Of a DNA stretch of 53,396 nt, positions 4,708 to 42,312 are shown in pieces. The notes beneath the pieces are model-generated. The model ran no database searches. It was not told the origin of the DNA and worked only from the letters and a program-made list of their open reading frames with translations. The translations under genes and the position numbers were made by a program. Source of the DNA: Moorena bouillonii PNG (GTDB lineage: Bacteria > Cyanobacteriota > Cyanobacteriia > Cyanobacteriales > Coleofasciculaceae); the NCBI RefSeq assembly GCF_001942495.1, contig NZ_MKZS01000001.1, positions 5,222,817 to 5,276,212 on the forward strand, read 5' to 3'. How positions within the stretch are numbered: the first letter of the stretch is position 1; every line of letters begins with the position of its first letter.

Positions 4708-5961
4708 TTACAAGCCCAGAAGAAATTTCAGTGCAATAGCTTCTAGTTTTACTCCCGTCAGAATCATATCCAGTCCCAGAGCCACCTGCATCACCCCAAA
4801 CACAAAACCAAGCACTCTTAGAGTCACGGGTTTGATGAGATTCAAAAGGGGATGGGCGACCAACATTACCCCTAAGTTGAGTACCATAACCAATAATAAT
4901 AGCAAAAACATAGAACCCGGAGCAATTGCCATCCGTCCGAACATGGCGCTCATAGTCACCACAACAGCAATGCCATAGGGAGTTAAAATACTGGGAAAAA
5001 CTAAGGGATTAATCGTTAACTTGAGAGAAGGATTTACAGGGGTAGCATCCTTGGTTGTGGGGGTATTATACTGAGATAATACTGTTCGCAGAGCCACTAA
5101 AAAAAGGATAATACCTGTTGCGATAAGCATTGCTGAGATATCAATTTTCCAGGCTTTCAGAACATTTTGGCAAAGTAGTGCTACCGCAAAAATAACTAAC
5201 GTAGATATGCCAAACCCCCGTAAAGCAAGCTGGCGACGCAAGGCCGGATCCGCATTAGCTGTCAGCTTCACAAAGGGTACAATTAGCTTGAGTGGACCGA
5301 CGGTAAGTAAAAAGATAATCAGGATATTGAATGCCCCAAATCCCTCAAAAAGTTGCTCAAACAACACTTGAGTTTTAGCATCAATCTCAGCCTTGACCGG
5401 TATGGCAATTTGATTGCTCGATGATTCCAGAGCTTGGGCTGAGATTATGGTGTTGCTTAATAATGGAATGATTTTAAGAGTGAGGTGGAATGGGCATCTT
5501 GGTAGAACTGGCATCTTGCCAGTTTCATGCTTATTTCCGGCGGGAATGATTTGAAGAGTGAGGTGGAATGGGCATCTTGGTAGAACTGGCATCTTGCCAG
5601 TTTCATGCTTATTTCCGGCGGGAATGATTTGAAGAGTGAGGTGGAATGGGCATCTTGGTAGAACTGGCATCTTGCCAGTTTCATGCTTATTTCCGGCGGG
5701 AATGATTTGAAGAGTGAGGTGGAATGGGCATCTTGGTAGAACTGGCATCTTGCCAGTTTCATGCTTATTTCCGGCGGGCAGGATGCCCACTCTACTCCTA
5801 TTCATGGAAAGATTCAGCAACGCTGTTTGCCCAGTAAAATCCTTTGCCAGTAAGGGAGATGGCGGTGTAGGGATGGTGGCTGTGGCACTGTTAAGTGCTA
5901 ACATCGAGGCAAAATAAGCCGATGCGATCGCTATCCCTAGAATTCTCAACAACCTACCCAT
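4708..5961 (-). CDS. MarC-family integral membrane protein with a repeat-expanded N-terminus
   Basis: The C-terminal 220 residues form a MarC/UPF0056-type membrane domain with about six hydrophobic helices (for example FNILIIFLLTVGPLKLIVPF, LVFPSILTPYGIAVVVTM, FLLLLLVMVLNLGVMLVAH). The biochemical role of this family is not settled, and antibiotic efflux has been doubted. Residues 1-30 look like a signal peptide or first membrane anchor. Between about residues 60 and 165 lie four tandem 26-residue copies of a segment containing AGNKHETGKMPVLPR, encoded by a 78-bp DNA repeat whose length keeps the frame open. Family members are normally about 200-210 residues; this one is 417. The insert lies before the membrane core, so function may survive. 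Confidence 0.75.
   Translation of the reverse strand: MGRLLRILGIAIASAYFASMLALNSATATIPTPPSPLLAKDFTGQTALLNLSMNRSRVGILPAGNKHETGKMPVLPRCPFHLTLQIIPAGNKHETGKMPVLPRCPFHLTLQIIPAGNKHETGKMPVLPRCPFHLTLQIIPAGNKHETGKMPVLPRCPFHLTLKIIPLLSNTIISAQALESSSNQIAIPVKAEIDAKTQVLFEQLFEGFGAFNILIIFLLTVGPLKLIVPFVKLTANADPALRRQLALRGFGISTLVIFAVALLCQNVLKAWKIDISAMLIATGIILFLVALRTVLSQYNTPTTKDATPVNPSLKLTINPLVFPSILTPYGIAVVVTMSAMFGRMAIAPGSMFLLLLLVMVLNLGVMLVAHPLLNLIKPVTLRVLGFVFGVMQVALGLDMILTGVKLEAIALKFLLGL
5466..5777. repeat. Four tandem 78-bp repeats inside the MarC-like gene
   Basis: Unit starts at 5466, 5544, 5622 and 5700 give an exact 78-bp period, that is 26 codons. Copies are almost identical (the first differs by a base near 5475). 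Each unit holds the palindrome GGCATCTTGCCAG. Related CGGGCAAGATGCCCG words occur in the spacer at 24216-24310, so this is a dispersed cyanobacterial repeat taken into a coding region. Confidence 0.95.
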
Positions 5962-10509: not shown

Positions 10510-11235
10510 CTAGATTTCTGCTACTGGCTGAGGTGATACCCCAGAATAGACCTGCTGCACCCGTTCTAATTCCAGCTGATTCAAATAATCCACAGTCCAG
10601 TTAGCGTGACGCTGTAGCATATGAAGGGGATAAGTACTAGCCACTCCTACCACTGGCATGCCAGCTCGCTTCGCCGCCTCAATTCCAGCCAAAGAATCTT
10701 CTATCACTAGACATTCCGCAGGTTTCAAGTTCAGGTTACCATAAACTTGATTGAGCCGCTCTACCGCTAGCAGATAGCCATCCGGTTCCGGTTTACTAGT
10801 AGTAATATCATCACCAGCAACAATCAAACTAAAATAGTGAGCTAAACCAGCGCGATTGAGCACCACTTCTACCTCATTCCGCAATGCTCCAGTCACCAGA
10901 GCCATTGGTATCTGAGCACCCTGGATCTGAACCATTAAATCCTCCACACCAGGATAAATGGGCAACGTTTCTATACTTTCTAGCTGACGTTGATAGGCAG
11001 CAGCTTTGCGGCTAATGAGCTGATTTAAGTAATCCTCCGTAACCACCCGACCGCGACGCTTAAGTAACTCTCGCAGACAAGAGCGATCGCCTCTACCTGT
11101 ACAAACCTGTCGAAACTCTTCGGAATCCGGACGCAAATTTTCCCCAAGAATAATTTCCTCAATTAGTTTCTCGTGAATCGGCTCATCATTGATTATTACT
11201 CCGTTAAAATCAAACAGAACTGCTTTCAAACTCAT
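10510..11235 (-). CDS. HAD-superfamily hydrolase-like protein lacking the second motif-I aspartate
   Basis: A 241-residue protein of the beta-phosphoglucomutase-like HAD subgroup. Motif I is LFDFNGVIINDEP, with the nucleophile D9 present but position 11 an Asn in place of the usual acid/base Asp. A helical cap follows (residues 18-90). Motif II is ALVTGALRNEV, motif III is the lysine in TSKPEPDGYL, and motif IV is CLVIEDSLAGIEAAKRAGM. The D-to-N change should weaken classical phosphatase turnover, so this may be a slow or different enzyme. The DFNGV form recurs in cyanobacterial homologues, as far as I recall, so it is probably not a recent mutation. Confidence 0.8.
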   Translation of the reverse strand: MSLKAVLFDFNGVIINDEPIHEKLIEEIILGENLRPDSEEFRQVCTGRGDRSCLRELLKRRGRVVTEDYLNQLISRKAAAYQRQLESIETLPIYPGVEDLMVQIQGAQIPMALVTGALRNEVEVVLNRAGLAHYFSLIVAGDDITTSKPEPDGYLLAVERLNQVYGNLNLKPAECLVIEDSLAGIEAAKRAGMPVVGVASTYPLHMLQRHANWTVDYLNQLELERVQQVYSGVSPQPVAEI

Positions 11236-11679
11236 AAGTACCTAGATATAAATTCTGTTACTATTGTTTATAAGCATAAAAAAAATAACGTTAATCAACC
11301 CTTTTTTGTTCCCCGTTACCCCTTGCCTATTCCCTTATTTTAACATTCAACGTTACTAATCTTAACAGTCAAGGTTAATTGTGTCCAAGTGATTACTTGA
11401 GGTCAGCTATCAGCTATCAGCTATCAGCTATCAGCTTATGGGTTATAGGCACTGAAGTATAGTTTAGGACATAGTATTTTGGTTTAAAGGGAGCAGGGAG
11501 CAGGGAGCAGGGAAAATAAATATGTCCTAAGCTTTGCTTCGACTGCTATACCTCACAGGCTTCTAGCCTGTGCGACGCTACTTGACTTTTGAATAAAACA
11601 GGTAACCATTCATTTATCTGAGTTAAGTCTGCTGAGCGCTGAGCGCTGACCGCTGAATGCTTACTACTTGAGAAAGGCA
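11236..11679. other. Repeat-filled spacer, no gene seen
   Basis: Holds CAGCTAT heptamers at 11404-11436, GGGAGCA heptamers at 11490-11515, the palindrome CACAGGCTTCTAGCCTGTG at 11555-11573 and GAGCGCT units near 11633-11652. The HAD gene promoter should be at its left end. Confidence 0.7.
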
Positions 11680-12292
11680 CTATACCGCTGGAACCGGCAG
11701 CCCTTGTGACGCAATATCATCTGGAAAACTTCCCTCAGATTGAGATTCCCAAACAGTTGATTTCCCTACTGGCAAAGGTTTTAGACCCTGAGTTATTTGA
11801 TGCAGCCACCACCATTGCGTAGTCCGGACTGCTTCAAAACTAGCTGCACCCATCCAAGCATCAACGCTACCATTAGCGTAAGCCTTGATATAGGGTTCTT
11901 CAAAAACTTCCGTTAGCCAATTCGCCTCCCGGATCGTAGTCTGATTCCCGTCTAGAATCAAGACTTGTCCTCCCCCTTGGAGCAGTCGGAAGGATTCATG
12001 CAAAATCGACTGAGTTACCTTGGGTGGAGTTTCGTGAAACAACAGTGATGCTGTAACTAGATCAAAAGACTGATCATCTAAACCGGTCTGTTCAGCCATA
12101 CCATGAAGCCACTGAATATCGAGATTAGCCTTGTTAGCTTTATAGTCAGCCATGACCAGCATATAAGGTGACCAAAAATATCGGTTTCAAGCCTGGCCTT
12201 GGCCAAAAGGCCACGCGGGGCGCGTTTGGCCACGCTACTTGAGGTGCCCATAAGCGGGCGAATTTTTCAAAAATGATGTGTTATAATCTAAT

Positions 12293-12510
12293 TAAGTGTG
12301 TAGCCTAGCACAGGCAGGATTCGTCGGTACTGCCCTATTCCCCAACGACGTAAAGCGATGCTAGTACACGAGGCGCGAAAAACCTCTAAAACGCATGGAT
12401 CTTAACGGATACCGAATACCAGTAAAATACGATTGCAAAATATTAACGTACCGTGGGGCACACGGAAACGGGAAATTCCAACGCTTAGGGAGATAAGCCC
12501 ACGCTCGTTT
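12293..12510 (+). ncRNA. HEARO / IscB omega-RNA-like sequence
   Basis: The order of short blocks AGCACAGGC, ATTCGT, CCCTATTCCCC, AAAGCGATGC and GATAAGCCC resembles the core of IscB omega-RNAs as I remember them. Local stems are visible: TGTG/CACA (12296-12312), GGCAG/CTGCC (12313-12334) and CCGTG/CACGG (12451-12465). In living elements this RNA lies directly upstream of iscB and its 5' neighbour serves as guide. Here it stands alone. The assignment rests on memory of the motif, not on a covariance model. Confidence 0.55.
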
Positions 12511-12591
12511 AGTTAAATTAGGCTCGATACTTGGTTATGCATGAACCGGTGTTTGGCTTAAGTATTGCCTTTCAGGATAGCTAATTTTAGC

Positions 12592-12641
12592 GATGCAGCG
12601 CGGTCTTGGGGGTTTCCCCCATGAGCGACTGCATCAAGACA
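12592..12641 (+). repeat. Mobile palindromic repeat, copy 1 (GATGCAG...CTGCATC)
   Basis: The same sequence as the 52-bp insertion at 19605-19656, apart from its last two bases, with outer stem GATGCAG/CTGCATC and inner stem TGGGGG/CCCCCA. A third copy with a different inner loop is at 42046-42096. Confidence 0.9.
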
Positions 12642-13039
12642 AGGCGTGTCGTAGAACTAAGAATCCCCGTTCTTACTTCGGCGGGGAGTGTCAAGGACCC
12701 AGGTTTCATTAGGGGGCAACGCATATTGGGTAATTGGGTCGTAGCTTGTGGCTGCACTTCCATTCAAGTAGCCCCCTTCAATACCATGGAAATTCTGAGT
12801 GCTGTAATAGTCAGGATAGATTAAATCAGGGTTACGGAAGCGATCGCACTCAGCTTCCCAATCCATAGTTTGGTAAAACTGTAGCAGCTTTTCTTGATCA
12901 ATCAAGCTAAAGATGATCGGGGATAAGAAACGGTCCCAAAGTGTATCTTGATTAACTGCCATAGGTATAATTCCTGTAGATGTCAAACCAACTGCTAACG
13001 CAGTATACCTTGAGGGTGATTAATCTAGCACCACACTCC

Positions 13040-14170
13040 TTACCGTTGCCGTTTAATATACCGAGCAAACCGCTCCCGACCCTCTTGCAGATTACCAGGA
13101 ATACCATTAGGGTAAGTTTTAGCAATCAGACTCTGGAGTTGTTCAATCCGATTACTAGGGTTAGGGTGAGTAGTGACATACTCCCACACTGAATCGAAGA
13201 TTACAGTGTGGGCTTCTTACCAACTCCAGCCATCGCTTAGGATACTCGGTAAGCTTTATTAACGACACGGGATGCCCCTCCGCGCCGGAACAATACAATA
13301 AGTTCTATTTTTAATTAGTAGGTGGCGGTTAGCTCTTAATTTGTTTTCCCTACTATTTTTAGTATAACGTTTTTCAGCCTGTTTATCAGAGTTCCAGCTC
13401 CGCGATTCATCCCACACTCATGCTGCGCATTGAGATGTGGGGCTTCTCGCGGAGGAAGCTAAAAAACTCCGGTGGTTGCCCACCCTGTCGAATCGAGTTA
13501 AGGACTTGCATCAGTTCAACGATTCCCCTAGGGTTATAGCCCGCTTGTGTCATAAATCGAAAACCAAGGCGGTCGCTTTCTAATTCATCCTCACGTCCAT
13601 ACTTAAGGCTAACCATTTGATTAATCGCTTGGGCAAGTAGTGCTGCTTGCCTGCCACTCTGGGCATCATCACTGGCAGCAATACCAACAGCATTAACCAA
13701 TGCTACCCCAAGTTTCTGCTTGGCCAGATGTTCTGCACCATGTCGTCCCACCACGTGACCAATCTCATGGCCCAACACCCCCGCCAGCTGAGCTTCTGAA
13801 TTAAGTCGCCTGAGCATGGCCAGGGTCAGAAAAATTTGTCCCCCTGGTAGAGCAAAGGCATTCACCGTGCGGGGGTCACTCAACAAATAGAACTCAAACG
13901 GATAAGGTGAACCAGAGGCTGCCGACTTTTTGACAATCTGCTCTCCCACTTGAGAAATATATCCTTGAAGGGCTTTATCTTGGTAAAGACCACCGTGTTG
14001 AGCGGCCATTTCCGTGCTTGTAACCCAATCACCACTTCCTGACGGGGGGAAAGTTGGATGCGCTGCTTTTCCCCAGTTACTGGGTTTTCAGAGACACTGG
14101 TAAAGTAGCTGATCAACCCAAACAAGCCGACTATGAATGCAATTCCTAAACGAAGGATTAGTCTACGCAC
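13040..14170 (-). pseudogene. M48-family zinc metallopeptidase, frameshifted and split
   Basis: It begins MRRLILRLGIAFIVGLFGLI (membrane anchor or signal), then NPVTGEKQRIQLSPRQEVVIGLQAR. A one-base loss near 14010 shifts the frame. The new frame carries MAAQHGGLYQDKALQGYI and the zinc motif HEIGHVVGRH with the later glutamate in YGREDELESDRLGFRFM, ending at ...GGQPPEFFS. A 286-bp element intervenes (13172-13457). The frame then resumes THPNPSNRIEQLQ and stops at 13040. Removing the element and restoring one base gives exactly 282 codons. The lesions probably inactivate this periplasmic or membrane-bound quality-control protease. Confidence 0.85.
13172..13457 (-). mobile_element. 286-bp IS605-type derivative without tnpB
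   Basis: Read on the minus strand, its left end GAAGCCCCACATC...GTGTGGGATGAAT matches the left end of the TnpB element at 22503 (GAAGCCCCACGTC...GTGGGATGAAT). Its right 110 bases match the 3' end of tnpB and the terminal hairpin of that element (GGGGCATCCCGT..., then GAAGCCCACACTGTAATC and GTGTGGGAGTATGTCAC). The interior, including tnpB, is gone. It must have been moved by a transposase supplied elsewhere. It splits the M48 peptidase gene between codons for Ser and Thr. Confidence 0.85.
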
Positions 14171-14321
14171 CGATTATCTCCCAAATTCATCCATAGCAAA
14201 ATACTATAAGACTATTGTTCTAGAAGATATGATTAATGATTAGAACCGTTATGATTAGAGCTATCATTTAACAAGTATTACCCTATATTGACCAATCTGT
14301 ATTAGTCCTGAAAACTTACAT

Positions 14322-14368
14322 AGGTGCGCTTGACCCATTAAGAATTAAATTCGCCACGGGTCGCACCT
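14322..14368. repeat. Dispersed palindrome AGGTGCG...CGCACCT, copy A
   Basis: About 47 bp bounded by AGGTGCG and CGCACCT with AATTAAATT in the middle. Other copies are at 28318-28363, 28522-28567 and 42097-42146. This copy sits in the leader of the response regulator gene, 28 bases before its start, so it may form a hairpin in the mRNA. Confidence 0.9.
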
Positions 14369-14395
14369 CTTGTTTGGCCTAGACACCATTCAGCT

Positions 14396-15070
14396 ATGAC
14401 CCACCATATTTTAGTTGTCGAAGATGAAACCAAACTAGCCCAGTTTATTGAACTGGAACTCAAGTACGAAGGTTATCAGGTTAGTGTTGCCTACGATGGA
14501 TTAGCTGGTTTGGGAGCAGCGCGGGAATCTAATCCAGATTTAGTAATACTTGACTGGATGCTACCGGGCATATCAGGACCAGAAATTTGCCGACGCCTGC
14601 GCAGTACTGGTAATCAGGTGCCGATTATCTTATTAACCGCTAAAGATGAAGTAAGCGATCGCGTTAGTGGTTTAGATGCTGGTGCTGATGACTACGTAGT
14701 CAAACCCTTCAGCGTAGAGGAATTATTAGCCAGAGTCCGAGCTCATCTGCGACGCAATCAAACCGAAGACCCCAACATCCTGCAATTTGCCGACTTAAGT
14801 TTAAACCATAGCACCCGTGAAGTGTATCGAGGTCAGCGATTAATTGAACTGACTGTCAAAGAATTTGATCTACTCGAATATCTCCTAGCCCATCCCCGAC
14901 AAGTCCTCACCCGAGAGCAAATCCTCGAAAGAGTTTGGGGTTATGACTTTATGGGTGACTCTAATATCATAGAAGTTTACATTCGCTACTTGCGCCTGAA
15001 GCTAGAAGCCAACAACGAAAACCGTCTAGTCCAAACCGTGCGCGGTGTTGGCTACGTATTGCGAGATTAG
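14396..15070 (+). CDS. OmpR/PhoB-family response regulator (ManR-like)
   Basis: A 224-residue protein with a receiver domain (residues 1-120) and a winged-helix DNA-binding domain (130-222). The phosphoacceptor is D53 in [10 protein letters not shown], with acidic D10/E11, threonine in ILLTAKDE and lysine in YVVKPF. The winged helix shows [16 protein letters not shown] and VWGYDF...YIRYLRLKL. The receiver resembles cyanobacterial ManR-type regulators, but a ligand or cognate sensor cannot be named; no histidine kinase gene is adjacent. Confidence 0.9.
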
Positions 15071-15113
15071 TCCTGAGTGCATCATTCCTGATTGCATCAG
15101 TCCATCCTGACTT

Positions 15114-15191
15114 CCGACTCCCGACTCCCGACTCCCGACTCCCGTTCCCCTCTTGGGAGGGGTTAGGGGTGGGTTCCGACTCCCGACTCCC
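15114..15191. repeat. Heptamer array CGACTCC
   Basis: Four CGACTCC units at 15114-15142 and two more at 15177-15191, separated by a GGGAGGGGTTAGGGGTGGG tract. It lies between the convergent response regulator and ferredoxin genes. Confidence 0.9.
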
Positions 15192-15215
15192 TAAAAGCAT
15201 GGAAAACTGCTATAC

Positions 15216-15539
15216 CTAATAGCCAAAACTCATATGGATGCGGGGATGGAGTTTTGCCCTTACTAACTTACCTCCTTGCAGATGTTCTTCCACAATTACC
15301 GGCACATCTTGTGGTTTGACTCGGCAATACCAAGTCTCCTCTGGAACAATCCGCACCGTTGGACCAGAACTACACTGTCCCTGGCAAGTTGTACCAATCA
15401 CGCTAAAGTCAGAAAGATCAGCTTCCTCGAAGGCAGCCAGCACCTCAGCTGAACCGACTGCTAAACAAGACTTATATTGGCAGACTAAAACACAAGGCTT
15501 TTCAGTTTTGGCACTGTCTTGAGTAAAGTTTGTTTCCAC
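15216..15539 (-). CDS. Thioredoxin-like [2Fe-2S] ferredoxin
   Basis: A 107-residue protein. The cysteine pattern C20-x4-C25 (VCQYKSC) and C52-x3-C56 (TCQGQCSSGP) is that of thioredoxin-like [2Fe-2S] ferredoxins; C16 is an additional cysteine. The C-terminal half VRIVPEETWYCRVKPQDVP is typical of the stand-alone cyanobacterial form. It should carry electrons in the cytoplasm; partner unknown. Confidence 0.85.
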   Translation of the reverse strand: METNFTQDSAKTEKPCVLVCQYKSCLAVGSAEVLAAFEEADLSDFSVIGTTCQGQCSSGPTVRIVPEETWYCRVKPQDVPVIVEEHLQGGKLVRAKLHPRIHMSFGY

Positions 15540-15674
15540 CTTAAGTTCAGTTACTATTAAGAATTATTACTACTGTCATCATAACCATTGACTTTTAGGC
15601 ATATTTTAATGTCATTATCCCGTAGGATGCAAAATAGCTGTTTTCAGTCCTGAGTCGGTTTTGAGCTATGGGCG
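15540..15674. other. Short spacer, ferredoxin upstream region
   Basis: No gene seen. It should contain the ferredoxin promoter and ends at the left boundary of the first TnpB element. Confidence 0.4.
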
Positions 15675-15750
15675 GCAGCCCCGCGCCCTACGCGGATATT
15701 GTGGGCGTCGGGAAGGATAGCCCGGTGATGGAGTGGAACGGAATCACCAA

Positions 15751-15891
15751 TTAGGAATGTCTTGGCTCAGGGAAGCGAGCTATTAAGTTTCTAAGTACTT
15801 CCGATTCATTTATTCCCCTCCGTTCTGCTTCTTGTTATAGCTTCTTTTTCTCATATTCGGTTAACCGAATTGTCATCTTTATTGTTTTCAA
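15751..15891 (-). pseudogene. Ribbon-helix-helix protein of the TnpB element, with internal stop
   Basis: The minus strand reads LKTIKMTIRLTEYEKKKL, stop, QEAERRGINESEVLRN, then LIARFPEPRHS. This is the same protein as the intact 47-residue gene in TnpB element 2, but its start codon is TTG and TAA occurs at 15835-15837 in place of GAG. It is divergent from tnpB, 68 bp away. Confidence 0.75.
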
Positions 15892-15959
15892 TATGAATTG
15901 CCATTTGACTAGCTATATACTAAGATAGTAACAGGTCGATAAACCAGAGTAAAAACAGA

Positions 15960-17180
15960 ATGAGAGCTGCTTACCAGTACCGATTAAGATTAACCAAGAC
16001 TCAAGTAATTCAATTAGAGAAATGGTTAGAAATGTTGCGCTGCCAATATAACTACTTATTGGCTGACAGATTTGCCTGGTACGAACAAAATCGCTGTTCC
16101 ATCAATGCATGTTCTTTGGTTTGTCATCTCCCAGAACTCAGGGATAATCCTGATTACTACTCTCAAAAACGAACTCTTCCCCAGCTCAAGCAAAATAGAC
16201 CGTGGTACGGAGAAATTCATGCTCACGTTCTACAGGACTGCGTTAAACGAGTAGATTTAGCCTTTAAACGGTATCTCAAGGGGGATTGTAACGGTAGAAT
16301 AAGTGGAAGACCTCGGTTTAAAGGAAAAGCCCGGTACCGTTCCTTAACTTTCCCTTCTCTTGGGAAAAACCCTATTGATGGCCACCGTTTAAAACTACCT
16401 AAATTTGGGTGGGTCAAGATGGTTTACCACAGGCCAATCCCTGACGGCTTCAAGATTAAGACAGCTACAATTACCCGTAAAGCGGATGGTTACTATATCA
16501 CCTTATCGATCCAAGACGATACTGTACCTGAACTAATCCCTGTTGATCAGGTATCTAATCCTGTGGGGATTGATATGGGTCTTAAGTCGTTTTTGATTAA
16601 GTCTGATGGTACTGAGGTAGAAATTCCTCAATATTACCGAAAAGCTCAAAAACGGCTCAAGAAAATTCAGAAAGCCGTTAGCCGAACGAGAATTGGTAGC
16701 AATAACCGAAAAAAGGCTGTAACCAAACTAGGGAAGGCTCATAAAAAGGTAGCTGATACCCGAAAAGACTTTCATTTTAAGACGGCGTGCGGTCTGCTAG
16801 ATGACCACGATCTAGTAGCCCATGAAAAGCTCAACATTAAAGGTCTAGCCAGGACTAAAATGGCTAAATCAGTTTTGGACGCTGGATGGGGTCAATTCCT
16901 GTCAATCCTCTCAGTCAAAGCCGAGAATGCTGGGCTGTTAACGGTTGCAGTTAATCCCAAGAATACTAGCCAGAACTGTTCAAACTGCGGGAAGAAAGTA
17001 CCCAAAAAACTAAAAGACCGCACCCATTCCTGTCACCATTGTGGTTATATCGCAGATAGGGATGTTAATGCGGCTAAAAATATCTTGAAATTGGCGGTGG
17101 GGCATCCCGTCAGAAGTAAAGCTTACCGAGTAACCCAGGCAATGGCCGGTGTTGGTAAGAAGCCCGCGTTGTCCCGTTAG
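15960..17180 (+). CDS. tnpB: TnpB RNA-guided nuclease (IS605 OrfB family)
   Basis: A 406-residue protein. The N-terminal wedge starts [15 protein letters not shown]. The RuvC-like catalytic acids are in GIDMGLKS (about residue 205), [10 protein letters not shown] (about 288) and [10 protein letters not shown] (about 366), and the zinc ribbon is CSNCG...CHHCG. All key residues are present, so the protein may be active as an omega-RNA-guided DNA nuclease that keeps the element in place. No tnpA transposase is nearby. It is closely similar to the copy at 22755-23969, and the two flank an 5.5-kb segment. Confidence 0.95.
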
Positions 17181-17342
17181 GGCAACGTCGGGAGTATGTC
17201 ACGAAGCACAGTCTCCTGTTATGCACCAATGACCAATGAATAATTACCAATAACTCATTGCTCAACCATCCAATTGAATCGGAGAGCAGCTTAACATTAG
17301 AATGAAGACCACACTTCGAACCCAATTGTCCCTGAATCCGTC

Positions 17343-19322
17343 ATGAATCCAAAACTCTTAAACAATCGCTACCGTGTCCTTGAGACTCTAGGTTCGGGTG
17401 GGTTCGGTGACACCTTTCTCGCCGAAGATATCCATATGCCCTCAAGACGGCGGTGTGTGATTAAGCAACTTAAGGCATTAGCTCATAATCCCAAAGCTTA
17501 CAAGCTCGTCCAAGAGCGATTCCAACGAGAAGCAGCTGTTTTAGAAGCCTTAGGGGAAGGACATGACCAGATTCCGAGACTTTATGCCTATTTCTCTGAA
17601 GCCGAAAAGTTTTACCTGGTTCAAGAGTGGATTCGAGGAAATACCTTTACAACACAGGTCAGACAGGGAAAAAAATTTACTGAGATTGAAGTTAGGGAAC
17701 TCCTAATTAGTTTGTTAAAAGTTCTAGAGTATGTCCACTCTCGCCGTATCATTCATCGGGACATTAAGCCAGATAACATCATTATCCGCCAACGAGATGG
17801 AGTACCAGTTCTGATTGATTTTGGTGCAGTCAAAGAAGCAATGAGTACCGTAGTCACCAACTCTGGCACCCCTCACCCAGCATCAATTATAATTGGCACT
17901 CCTGGCTATATGTCTTCGGAACAGTCAGCAGGACACCCAACCTATAGCAGTGATCTGTACAGTTTGGGGCTGACAGCAATTTTATTGCTAACGGGTAAAA
18001 TACCACAGCTATTCCACACAGATGAGAGGACTGGTGAAATTTTATGGCGTCAAGATGCCCCACACCTTTATTCAAACCTAGGAATAGTGCTCGACAAAGC
18101 GATTCGATTCCATCCACGCGATCGCTTTATTAGTGCCAGACAAATGCTTGATGCTCTCCAATCTGACCCGGCATCACCTACGGAAGCCACAGTCCCCATG
18201 TCTCCCGGTGCCCCATCAACAGCCAACAAAGGTACCGTAGCAACAGTCCCCATTTCTCCCGGTGAGCCACCAGCCAACAACGGTTCAGTGTCCACTATTA
18301 AAGGCCCTTATCCAGTCACTGTAAAACAAAACGATAGTTACAAGGCAGTTTTAAAGGGAGGTTTAATCGGAGGCGGTATATTACTGATTGTGGTGGCATT
18401 TGGTTCAGGATTCAACAAATTCTTGAATCCCTCTACGACCGTCCCATCCTATGATCAATCTAAATCAACATCATACCCAGACAAGCCAAGTTCTCAAGAA
18501 CCGCAAGATAAAAAAGTATCATCAAAAGACCCATTACCAGAAACACCATCATACCCATCACAGTCCCAGACCAATAACCCATCACAACCAGTAACTAAAC
18601 CAGAAACACCATCATACCCATCACAGTCCCAGACCAAGGATCGATCATCCCCATCACAACCAGAGACTACCGTAACTGATCCGGTCACACCATCATCCCC
18701 ATCACAACCAGACTCGACCGTAACTGATCCGGTCACACCATCATCCCCATCACAACCAGAGACTACCGTAACTGATCCGGTCACACCATCATCCCCATCA
18801 CAACCAGAAACTACTGTAAAACCAGTTCCAGTAACGACACGGAAACCTATCACCGAACCTTCACCCATCGTAGAAAACAAGACCAGTAACCCAAATCTTG
18901 CTCAGCTCAACGCTATTCCCAAATTTCCCCCAGGAACTCAGCGAAGAGCAGTGGAATATGCTTTAGGCAAGCCCACAAAACAATCAAACGGCATGTGGAA
19001 GACTCGCGCTTTCCTTTATAAAAACGTTGTGCCCAATCATGTAGACCTAGGATACCTGTTTGATCGAAGTTCTGGGCGTCTGCGCCAAACGGAAGTTACT
19101 TTTTCGCAATCCGTTGACCTAGAAATCATGTCAGAGACCTTAAACAAGCTGCTCAGTAACAACATCTCCACTGACATTAAACAGGGACTGAAAGATGTAT
19201 ATCAGGGCGAGTCTAAGACCTATAAATTTTCCAGTGGTAACAATAACAGCTTGGAGGGTGTGATTCAACGAGACGGTAGCGATCGCATTTACATTGGTGT
19301 TTGGGAAGCCGATTTAAAGTAA
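17343..19322 (+). CDS. Eukaryotic-type Ser/Thr protein kinase, membrane-anchored
   Basis: A 659-residue protein. Residues 1-275 are the kinase domain: glycine loop GSGGFGDTF, lysine in CVIKQLKAL, catalytic loop HRDIKPDN, DFGAVKE, and the APE-equivalent region GTPGYMSSEQ. A single membrane helix (GGLIGGGILLIVVAFGSGF) lies near 340-358. It is followed by 130 residues of Pro/Ser/Thr repeats and a C-terminal domain (about 520-659) I do not recognise, with PKFPPGTQRRAVEYALGKPT. The layout suggests an outer sensor or wall-facing part linked to a cytoplasmic kinase. The signal is unknown. Confidence 0.9.
   Translation: MNPKLLNNRYRVLETLGSGGFGDTFLAEDIHMPSRRRCVIKQLKALAHNPKAYKLVQERFQREAAVLEALGEGHDQIPRLYAYFSEAEKFYLVQEWIRGNTFTTQVRQGKKFTEIEVRELLISLLKVLEYVHSRRIIHRDIKPDNIIIRQRDGVPVLIDFGAVKEAMSTVVTNSGTPHPASIIIGTPGYMSSEQSAGHPTYSSDLYSLGLTAILLLTGKIPQLFHTDERTGEILWRQDAPHLYSNLGIVLDKAIRFHPRDRFISARQMLDALQSDPASPTEATVPMSPGAPSTANKGTVATVPISPGEPPANNGSVSTIKGPYPVTVKQNDSYKAVLKGGLIGGGILLIVVAFGSGFNKFLNPSTTVPSYDQSKSTSYPDKPSSQEPQDKKVSSKDPLPETPSYPSQSQTNNPSQPVTKPETPSYPSQSQTKDRSSPSQPETTVTDPVTPSSPSQPDSTVTDPVTPSSPSQPETTVTDPVTPSSPSQPETTVKPVPVTTRKPITEPSPIVENKTSNPNLAQLNAIPKFPPGTQRRAVEYALGKPTKQSNGMWKTRAFLYKNVVPNHVDLGYLFDRSSGRLRQTEVTFSQSVDLEIMSETLNKLLSNNISTDIKQGLKDVYQGESKTYKFSSGNNNSLEGVIQRDGSDRIYIGVWEADLK
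18650..18812 (+). repeat. 48-bp in-frame repeats in the kinase linker
   Basis: Period 48 bp (CGTAACTG at 18671, 18719 and 18767) encoding the 16-residue unit TVTDPVTPSSPSQPET, three full copies with shorter related units upstream from 18541. It makes a flexible extracytoplasmic stalk. Confidence 0.9.
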
Positions 19323-19451
19323 AAAGTAATCTTAATTCCCTGAGCAAGACTGTAGTGCTAAAGGCTCCCCGGCTGATAGCTGATAGCTAAGGGCACCTCA
19401 AGTAGCATCTCAAGTAGCGCATATGCTTACCTTTTGTCTATTTAATTTAAC

Positions 19452-19974
19452 ATGAGAAAAATACTCATATTCGGTAACTCTGGAGCGGGAAAAACAACCT
19501 TAGCCTTAAAATTGCAGGTTGAATTAAGCTTACCCATACTCGATCTAGATACTATTACTTGGATACCGGATCTACCAGGAGTAAGACGAGAAGATGTGGA
19601 AAGCGATGCAGCGCGGTCTTGGGGGTTTCCCCCATGAGCGACTGCATCAAGACAGCGAGAGATTATTAATCGACTTTATTCAAAAAAATCCTGGATGGAT
19701 AATTGAAGGATGCTACGGTAGTTTAATTGAAACAGCCGCCAAATATTCCTCAGAGATGATATTTTTGAATCCTGGAGTTGAAAAATGCCTAGAAAACAAT
19801 CGACTCAGACCATGGGAGCCTCATAAGTATAAGACTCCCAAAGAACAAGAAGCGAATTTTGAATTTCTACAAACCTGGATTAGAGACTACTATTCACGTG
19901 ATGATGAATATTCCTTTAGGTGCCATGATCGACTATTCAAAACATTTAGCGGCAATAAAAGAGAAATCAATTAA
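19452..19974 (+). pseudogene. Adenylate-kinase-like P-loop gene broken by a 52-bp repeat
   Basis: It begins MRKILIFGNSGAGKTTLALK with Walker A GNSGAGKTT, then LPILDLDTITW. At 19604 a 52-bp palindromic repeat interrupts the frame. Removing bases 19605-19656 joins VRREDVE directly to SERLLIDFIQKN, continuing WIIEGCYGSLIETAAKY to the stop at 19974. That gives exactly 157 codons. The restored protein resembles small AAA/adenylate-kinase-like nucleotide kinases of unknown substrate. Because 52 is not a multiple of three, the present gene is frameshifted. Confidence 0.85.
19605..19656 (+). repeat. Mobile palindromic repeat, copy 2, inserted in a gene
   Basis: 52 bp from GATGCAGCGCGG to CATCAAGACAGC. 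The outer arms GATGCAG/CTGCATC and inner arms TGGGGG/CCCCCA form a hairpin. The exact restoration of a reading frame when it is removed shows that this short sequence inserted as a unit. Confidence 0.9.
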
Positions 19975-20192
19975 TCATGGGTTGCCGTAGCGTCGCATTT
20001 TCTAATGCTAGGATTGTACAACACCTTTTTAGGATTTTATCACTAGACAGAATTGCTGAAGTCATCGTAAGAATCCAGAATTTATGGGGAGCGCTCCATC
20101 TCTACTCCCTACTCCCTACTCCTGCGAAATCTAGGACAAAAGTACTTCACAGAATTTATCAATGCGATAAGTGGTAAATAGTTTGGTTTAAC
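19975..20192. other. Short spacer with heptamers
   Basis: Contains CTCCCTA heptamers at 20104-20121 and nothing else recognisable. Confidence 0.6.
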
Positions 20193-21170
20193 TTAAGCAC
20201 TTGTCCGAGATCCGATTATAGAATCTAATTTTTTTTGTGCAGGATAACGATTCAAATAAGCCGGATCATTAATATTTTTATGGCTTCCATAGTAGTTAGG
20301 TAATGGCTGAATTTGGGAAGCTTGATTTTGATGAGATTGGCCGAGCAACCTATCAGCTAAAATACTAGAAATAGCTTTATAGAAACGGGACGAAAAACTT
20401 GTATCTTGCTGTAGTTTATCCTGTAATTGTTGCCGAGAAATTGACCAAACTTCTGAGTTAGTTATAGCGGTAACAGTAGCGGAAGGTAAACTTCGTTTTA
20501 GAAAGGACATTTCCCCCACTACTTCACCTCCTGATAATTCAGCAATATTTCTGCCCCCAACTGAAACTGTAAACTGTCCCTCCGATACTATATACAGTGC
20601 ATCAATTTCTTTCCCTTCTTCTATAAGCGTAGTATCGGCAATAATTTCTTTCTTGCTTCCTGTAGCAATCATCCATTCCACATCCCTATCACTCAATTCC
20701 TCTATCATCAAAAGTGTTTTTTTGATACCCTGCTTCCAGAGAGCTTCTACATTATGTAATTTTTCTATAGGAAGCAAGAATTCCTTATAATCATCAAAAA
20801 AAATTGCCCCTTGAGCCTTGAGAGCAGATATAATCTCCTCAGTAAGCCCTGAATTATTACAAAATTGAGCGTTGTCTAAAATAGCATTACTAAAGTCAGC
20901 ACCGGTTAGATTAGCATTTCTAAGATCAGCACCGCTCAGATTGGCATTCCTAAAAATCGTTCCCCTTAAATCGGCATTCCTCAGATTAACGTTTTCTAAG
21001 TTAACCCCGCTTAAGTCAACTCTAGCCAAGTCCTCAGAAAGATTTAGGTCAGCTATCTCCGCCAGTTTATAAAAATTAGTAGTGTTAGCGCCTTCAACAC
21101 TTTTGATTAATTCTTCTAACTCTTGGTTAAATTGTTCGTTATTTACCGGTTTTAATTGTTCGTTAGTCAT
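20193..21170 (-). CDS. Pentapeptide-repeat / cyclic nucleotide-binding domain fusion
   Basis: A 325-residue protein. Residues 42-105 are about a dozen A(N/D)LxxA pentapeptides (NADLRGTIFRNANLSGADLR). Residues about 165-290 are a cAMP/cGMP-binding-type beta-barrel (TTLIEEGKEIDALYIVSEGQ, AELSGGEVVGEMSFL, RSLPSATVTAI), followed by a helix. In the phosphate-binding cassette the usual RSA is RSLPSA, so ligand binding is uncertain. No DNA-binding domain or membrane segment is seen. Its start overlaps the end of the upstream gene by 8 bp, so the two are probably translationally coupled. Confidence 0.8.
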   Translation of the reverse strand: MTNEQLKPVNNEQFNQELEELIKSVEGANTTNFYKLAEIADLNLSEDLARVDLSGVNLENVNLRNADLRGTIFRNANLSGADLRNANLTGADFSNAILDNAQFCNNSGLTEEIISALKAQGAIFFDDYKEFLLPIEKLHNVEALWKQGIKKTLLMIEELSDRDVEWMIATGSKKEIIADTTLIEEGKEIDALYIVSEGQFTVSVGGRNIAELSGGEVVGEMSFLKRSLPSATVTAITNSEVWSISRQQLQDKLQQDTSFSSRFYKAISSILADRLLGQSHQNQASQIQPLPNYYGSHKNINDPAYLNRYPAQKKLDSIIGSRTSA

Positions 21171-41584: not shown

Positions 41585-42045
41585 AGGTAGGGTGTCTTCT
41601 TGATTAAAGGCTTGCTAAGTCACTACAGTAATTCTAAGGAAATTTGTGAGTGACTAAGTACCTGGATATAAATACTATTAGTTGTGTTTAACTTGCTAGT
41701 TTTATAATTTGTAATTTATCTAGTCAAAATTAATTTAATACGACGACTTCTCTTAAAGGTGATATCACTACCGTAATGATACTGATATCTATCATTGATT
41801 TCATAAACAATAACGGATAAATCAAGAATAATACTAACAGACTTGTATAAATAAATACTTGTTATCAGGGTATCTTCTTAAGAGAATTCGCGTATTCCTC
41901 AGTAATTTATCTTAAAAATACTATAATTGATACCATTATTATAATTGATGCCATTATAATTTATGATTAACTAGAGCCTCTGGGGGGGTAACCGGCAAGC
42001 TAAAATCATTACTGGGTAATAATTTCAGCCCATAAGTTACTTAGC
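41585..42045. other. AT-rich spacer, no gene
   Basis: Contains tandem ATAATTGATACCATTAT variants at 41930-41960. The DUF1295 gene promoter should be near its left end. Confidence 0.5.
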
Positions 42046-42096
42046 GATGCAGCGCCGCAAAAGGGGGTTTCTCCCATGAGCGACTGCATCAATACA
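42046..42096 (+). repeat. Mobile palindromic repeat, copy 3
   Basis: Outer arms GATGCAG/CTGCATC as in the copies at 12592 and 19605, but the loop reads CGCCGCAAAAGGGGGTTTCT. It directly abuts the AGGTGCG palindrome that follows, so one repeat may have inserted beside the other. Confidence 0.85.
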
Positions 42097-42146
42097 AGGT
42101 GCGCTTGACCTTGGCTAATTTAATTCTTAATGGGTCAAGCGCACCT
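42097..42146. repeat. Dispersed palindrome AGGTGCG...CGCACCT, copy D
   Basis: 50 bp with AATTTAATT in the middle; same family as the copies at 14322, 28318 and 28522. Confidence 0.9.
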
Positions 42147-42312
42147 TTAGAAACCCTATAGCAGTTCTCCATCGGGTGAGGTACTTTCCTCTTTAGTTTT
42201 AGGGAGCAGGGATTAGGGAGCAGGAAGCAATAAATAAAATTTATATTTACCTCAAGCTTACTAGGAAACGCAATAGTTCAGGTTTACTCAAGTCAAGCAA
42301 TTAAACAATGTT

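Follow-up and report, generated by a model that had tools for sequence, protein, structure and literature searches.

It is quite possible, though not assured, that a modular family of cyanobacterial hairpins includes, as its A-type, the 52-bp palindrome interrupting a kinase-like gene of Moorena bouillonii PNG, and that this hairpin is mobile but non-autonomous, moved in trans via a folded strand. The stretch of DNA analysed (53,396 nt, here called the window) sits on an 8.26-Mb contig of an 8.32-Mb assembly.

The unit in the kinase-like gene

The locus comprises the following features.

19452..19974, plus strand: gene for a P-loop protein (AAA_18, adenylate-kinase-like), interrupted by the unit; its first frame now stops after 61 aa.
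19602: target A preceding the unit.
19603..19654, plus strand: inserted 52-bp unit consisting of GC, the 44-bp hairpin 19605-19648 and AAGACA, as read from the sequence and from the empty sites L035, L040 and L182 (the last in genome G001).

The hairpin 19605-19648 has the sequence GATGCAGCGCGGTCTTGGGGGTTTCCCCCATGAGCGACTGCATC; together with the two bases before it and the six behind it, it makes up the insert. Removal of the 52 bp yields a single frame of 156 aa and a stop, in line with the earlier note, which had suggested that the palindrome inserts as a unit and kills the gene. The 156-aa read-across product is 43-52% identical to seven homologues found in other bacteria, and the alignments show no internal gap. 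With PF13238 the product scores 21.8 bits, which is under the cut-off of 29.4, and the homologue L032 scores 36.8 bits, which is above it.

The interrupted gene has its close DNA matches in Moorena. Sites without exactly these 52 bp were read in L035 of Moorena SS36440bin_2 (GAAAGTGAGAGA; the same reading in L183 and L185 of G002), in L040 and L041 of Moorena SIO3I8 and SIO3H5 (GAAAGCGAGAGA; the same reading in L184 of G003) and in L182 of G001 (GAAAGCGAGACA). Since these sister loci read empty, the 52 bp at the kinase-like gene represent a derived insertion. They are also absent from the seven distant homologues, which speaks against the alternative raised in the earlier note, namely that they are ancestral coding sequence. 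The target sequence AGCGA leaves the exact junction open within as many as 5 bases; judged by the other copies, the natural boundaries are 19603-19654, equivalent to 19605-19656.

The kinase-like gene is disrupted differently in three Moorena lineages (window 19452-19974; L035 3001-3600; L040 3001-3640). The window carries the 52-bp unit. A separate A-type copy lies further down in L035, and its loop contains a nested second hairpin; in L040 the gene is broken just past GAGAGAT by another inserted sequence. L182 of G001 is without insert at the site.

Further copies had been noticed at 12592 and 42046, and both are present; the three matches in the window compare with a mean of 0.00 in 100 shuffles.

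12590..12641, plus strand: second copy with identical 44-bp core and the tail AAGACA; an empty homologue is L070 of G001 (83% identity).
42044..42096, plus strand: third copy, a 45-bp core variant with the left arm CGCCGCAAAA and the tail AATACA.
42097-42150: inverted repeat AGGTGCGCTTGACC/GGTCAAGCGCACCT with 14-bp arms, directly beside the third copy.

The latter repeat corresponds to the palindrome which the third copy was said to abut. The proposed location of the second copy in a HEARO remnant is not supported by Rfam, which gave no HEARO match at the gathering threshold in the window or at E<=1 in the region 11000-20500, and in the empty homologue L070 (1 kb, E<=10) there were only four weak matches to other families, far under the cut-off.

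Copy number and distribution

A loose pattern matched 145 times in the own genome, while the reversed control pattern gave 0 matches, and 128 matches were obtained when the standard right arm was required. Among 37 relatives the pattern was found in four genomes, all Moorena, with 128, 86, 72 and 53 matches, in which a few copies are counted twice because near-perfect palindromes match on both strands; it is absent from the remaining 33. In a draw of 386 Cyanobacteriota, which was without the other two Moorena, the A-type is present in five genomes, two of them Moorena (125 and 67 matches) and the others G098, G151 and G170. The latter three carry identical 44-bp cores (2, 1 and 3 copies, respectively), and each represents a different family of the order. 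Copies beyond the genus came to light in the phylum draw, the 37 relatives having shown none outside Moorena. The inner module without the outer wings is more widespread: with at most one mismatch it was found in 16 of 156 genomes of the order, with counts of 154, 157 and 100 in three Moorena and of 1-6 in each of thirteen other genomes.

Phages and plasmids were considered as vehicles and rejected. The A-type was absent from the viral contigs and phages searched, and in plasmids the core alone turned up, in 13 records out of 72,556. All 13 are from cyanobacteria; the match spans 80% or more of the query in 8 of them, and 12 were read.

Ten copies could be compared between genomes by flanks of at least 85% identity, a procedure in which a paralogue is possible case by case. 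Six of them meet empty sites only and four are common to one other Moorena. At the level of these comparisons, the presence of the unit differs between Moorena species.

Ends, target and genomic context

Boundaries were aligned in 91 rows, 80 of them from the own genome, with the perfectly symmetric copy of L115 entered once in each orientation. On the left, 87 rows have AGC, 2 have TGC and 2 have CTT; on the right, 89 start with AAGA and 2 with AATA. Stringent empty sites exist for 11 copies (80 of the 91 rows have no qualifying one), partly in other genomes and partly in repeated stretches of the own genome. The gain at these sites is 52 bp in 10 copies and 51 bp in one, and for all 11 the base before the insertion, determined by eye, is A in at least one empty homologue. 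Apart from the ambiguity at 19605 that is caused by the target, none of the 11 has a target duplication of 2 bp or more. The A is common to both junctions and may therefore either be a single duplicated base or belong to the unit as its final base.

In the 53 of 86 Moorena rows that were analysed as AAGACA rows, position -1 is A in 53, position -2 is G in 1, position +1 is T in 1 and position +3 is G in 44. From this the rule HA^VNG -> HA[GC-hairpin-AAGACA]VNG was derived. Genome-wide collection of copies, a search for empty sites and derivation of a target rule had been proposed earlier; with 145 matches, 11 stringent empty sites and HA^VNG, all three are now at hand. As judged from the junctions, the unit enters as a precise full-length piece after the A in HA^VNG. 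The right ends of the 86 Moorena rows vary (AAGACA 54, AAGACG 10, AAGAA 15, AAGAG 4, others 3), and the 3' cut is therefore imperfectly fixed.

The ten AAGACG rows adjoin 7-base arrays (by eye). Heptamer arrays stand beside copies in 10 of 80 rows (8 real copies, L011 being a masked-N artefact and the L115 copy standing twice), compared to 96 of 4000 random sites. Two of these array copies, L112 and L057, have wider flanks in common. HIP1 (GCGATCGC) is abutted by A-type copies in G151, G423 and G479 and in 0 of the 86 Moorena rows. Within ORFs of at least 100 aa we found 21 of 74 copies of the own genome versus 714 of 1480 random sites, a deficit that is in part inherent, given that the ORF hit by an insertion can be broken by it. 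Among the matches listed (98 of 128, up to 5.78 of 8.26 Mb; 46 of the 98 on the plus strand), orientation showed no block-wise bias, 187 of 500 permutations being as strong; as these matches reach only this far along the contig, the test has limited power. At L051, three Rfam matches to the sRNA NsiR1 (17363-18771) lie around the copy at 18385.

Conservation of the stem and exchange of the wings

The fold z of the top strand is -4.7 for RNA and -5.7 for DNA. In an alignment of 31 distinct hairpins, whose collecting pattern prescribes the runs of G and of C as well as most of CAG/CTG, 98.3% of the cells are paired. Double-change cells number 28, compared to 7.0 +/- 2.1 in shuffles (0 of 500 as high) and to 0-9 in slid structures. 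The number of pairs changed on both sides (4 versus 3.0 expected; 82 of 500 shuffles) is not unusual alone; these four co-varying pairs lie outside the letters fixed by the pattern, and the covariation is mostly between subfamilies.

The 21 inner-module copies read in 20 stretches comprise 3 of A-type, 4 of B-type or B-like and 14 of C-type. The wings of the three types are the following.

A-type: GC-GATGCAG...CTGCATC-AAGA(C), or GGTGCAG...CTGCACC; sites A^VNG or HIP1.
B-type: AGXCAG...CTGX'CGTG after GGGG; site GGGG^G, often in the loop of another copy.
C-type: GAGXCAG...CTGX'CGAACCC...GGG, with putative ends; often in heptamer arrays.

All 14 C-type rows have GT on the left, but a T opens the right side in just 9 of them (by eye), and a T shared by both sides was therefore dropped as a reading. 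The B-type is the kind that is nested in A-type loops in Moorena. In G454 it is held by a short repeat whose unfilled form was found, at a different locus, in Moorena (L053, L114).

The alignments show that related copies keep the stem via paired base changes and that the wing types occupy different sites. On a more tentative footing, it is conceivable that cyanobacteria carry mobile hairpins of about 45-65 nt in which a near-constant core is recognised by the mover, while exchangeable, covarying wings and the tail serve as the target address (A^VNG or HIP1; GGGG^G including the loops of sister copies; heptamer arrays).

Nested copies and passengers

In 425 kb we found 79 GCGATGCAG sites. The standard right end is missing from 28 of them, and 7 right ends have no left partner. 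The unpaired ends were read over about 75 bases and proved to be mostly nested or variant, cut by masked N, or unrelated. Six of these sites ran into a longer repeat and were extended to about 520 bases. Five close within 170-300 bases, with a [CT]TGCATCAAGA end or the end of an inner copy, and are deeper nestings around an insert beginning with GGAGACGAAACC; for the sixth (L056), no outer right end was seen over about 520 bases. An autonomous element with the same ends was thereby discarded, the six longer forms being nested hairpins in which no gene was noticed on reading.

The GGAGACGAAACC insert is located inside nested hairpins at the following positions.

L044: 17641.
L051: 18473, minus strand.
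L054: 8360 and 8790, minus strand.
L056: 19152, minus strand.
L058: 9923, minus strand.

A B-type unit lies within an A-type unit in L058 and in turn holds this insert. In L044, L051 and L054 the insert itself holds another A-type copy at TTAATA^AGG, consistent with the target rule. Triple nesting is seen in L047 at 4713-4850 (the same copy as L030, about 920-1050), with a hairpin in a loop in a loop, each with its own wings. On the minus strand of L049 (7424-7570), the loop of a copy contains an insert of about 50 bp (ACGGGGC...ACCCATGCGCC), possibly another small mobile unit.

All three copies of G170 keep the frame of a tnpB gene, in whose 3' part they lie; this gene is repeated three-fold.

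L100 9894-9945, also L101 and L102 (G170): in-frame hairpin AMQRGLGGFPHERLHQD near the zinc-finger end of tnpB.

Among 27 tnpB loci, drawn from seven genomes and including two truncated at contig ends, these three were the only ones holding the element within the compared stretch, and tnpB was rejected as its carrier in Moorena. In Stanieria a core copy sits in a tnpB tail. In view of the G170 and Stanieria copies, the hairpin may pass between lineages via tnpB elements. In Moorena L123, a nested copy with an 88-bp core (1303-1390) lies just upstream of a C-terminal tnpB stretch, the frame being open over 428 aa; it may be another in-frame passenger.

How the hairpin may move

From the stem-loop, the earlier note had deduced single-strand transposition by a transposase of the TnpA/REP type. 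The importance of the structure is borne out by folding and covariation, but the kind of enzyme is not supported. A REP-like palindrome moved by a RAYT (TnpA_REP) would fit the size, hairpin and dispersal of the unit, and the genome has 18 matches to Y1_Tnp. However, a reading of 1.5 kb to either side with exact motifs found no copy abutting any of the 18, the GTAG/CGTC tag is absent (the hairpin foot is AGC in 87 of 91 rows and TGC in 2), the copies are single full units and not inverted doublets, and block-wise strand bias was not found. We consider this pairing improbable, since the known tag is absent and an orientation bias is not visible. No candidate enzyme was found, and a Y1 gene with the ends of the unit was not seen in the 1.5-kb flanks of the 18 matches, at loci whose element ends are unmapped. 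A nested copy lies about 0.75 kb downstream of the Y1 match of L086, not abutting it, and the hairpin beside the Y1 match of L090 is a different sequence. The outer inverted repeat GATGCAG/CTGCATC would also suit a MITE mobilised by the DDE transposase of an insertion sequence with matching ends. Here, a target duplication of at most one base, asymmetric ends (GC and AAGACA) and the nested, apparently gene-free nature of the six extended forms, none of them an insertion sequence, make this very improbable.

The main rival remains an RNA route, in which the hairpin is transcribed and then inserted by reverse transcription or reverse splicing; Elhai is said to have proposed in 2008 that small dispersed repeats (SDRs) of cyanobacteria spread by way of RNA. 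The covarying stem, two group II intron matches in L051 and an excess of wobble pairs are compatible with this (4 G-U/U-G cells versus one A-C cell by reading, which would favour pairing in RNA of the strand as read, although the numbers are tiny). Yet nearly all copies read have two fixed ends, no tail whose length clearly varies was seen, and the 28 of 79 left ends that lack the standard right end are mostly nested, variant, N-masked or unrelated. Moreover, the ends are unlike those of group II introns, and overall we regard insertion through RNA as unlikely, albeit worth serious attention. Passive spread by homologous recombination or gene conversion, including hitch-hiking in larger elements, could account for the G170 copies, which all ride in one tnpB repeat, and for the array copies L112 and L057 with their similar wider flanks. 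It is very doubtful as the main route, against which stand the unrelated look of the flanks of copies and the exact loss of the unit at empty sites; as a secondary route it remains.

We favour a mover that would be distinct from the known RAYT/REP pairing, a fold-recognising nickase acting in trans. It fits because the ends are precise, one base is shared, the stem covaries and the sites are specific to the wings. An enzyme encoded elsewhere would recognise the folded core on one strand and cut beside the base common to element and target, which would be A for the A-type; the strand would then be rejoined or copied into the new site, and the unpaired feet and the tail might help to choose that site. 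The strand would be DNA and the chemistry HUH-like, with a nick 3' of the shared base and no longer target duplication. A HUH-type single-strand mechanism in the wider sense is possible. Against this explanation stand the lack of a candidate enzyme, the variable right end, the missing block-wise orientation bias, where well-studied Y1 elements favour the lagging strand, and the target preference on both sides of the nick, where that of IS200/IS605 elements lies only 5' of it. With IS200/IS605-type transposons and with PATEs, as generally described, the unit shares the hairpin, the lack of target duplication and the insertion 3' of a fixed base. It differs from them by its 52 bp, its one hairpin, its two-sided target preference and in that no Y1 gene with its ends was seen in the flanks read.

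Relation to known elements and significance

Descriptions of very small mobile repeats in cyanobacteria go back to 2008, and we know of no identified mover for them. The SDRs of Elhai 2008 reportedly are mobile and nested repeats of 21-27 nt, located in heptamer arrays, with a hairpin kept by compensatory mutations. The A-type unit resembles them as a tiny mobile cyanobacterial hairpin with compensatory changes, heptamer arrays, HIP1 and nesting. It differs in size (52 bp in 10 of 11 copies and 51 bp in one, compared to the 21-27 nt reported for SDRs), in the 0 of 86 Moorena rows at HIP1, and in having a common core with swapped wings. Thus it is SDR-like by behaviour and not an SDR by size, a likeness drawn from descriptions only, and by this analogy SDRs would be the closest known kind. 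Rickettsia palindromic elements can likewise sit in frame in a gene, as the hairpin does in tnpB of G170, but the unit is about half their size, and only 21 of 74 copies are in ORFs. According to PMC4390886, the insertion point of SDR5 in HIP1 is exactly between nucleotides 3 and 4. The SDR paper of Elhai 2008 is cited in PMC3116915 and PMC3733652, which also present REP/REPIN sequences with RAYTs as short palindromes dispersed within a genome; from these our unit differs by the missing GTAG/CGTC tag, the lack of a RAYT beside its copies and its single instead of doublet form. Nezha and other cyanobacterial MITEs, named in PMC3733652, are similarly non-autonomous and dispersed and have an inverted repeat, but the unit is much smaller and its target duplication is at most one base. 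A search of a paper library for printed core sequences gave no paper, and none of the titles and abstract beginnings listed concerned this hairpin family.

The 52-bp hairpin appears to rank among the smallest known mobile elements. Its insertion product, target rule, empty sites, nested generations and copies in different families can be read from the sequence, and thus the chemistry of its movement is testable. Available for this are a 52-nt substrate, a defined junction and 53-128 matches per Moorena genome as opposed to 1-3 in the few other A-type genomes. Were the reading with wings as address true, hardly any precisely transposing unit known would be smaller than these hairpins, and their target specificity could be swapped; if the wings set the target, cyanobacteria would harbour a natural minimal transposon with exchangeable addressing.
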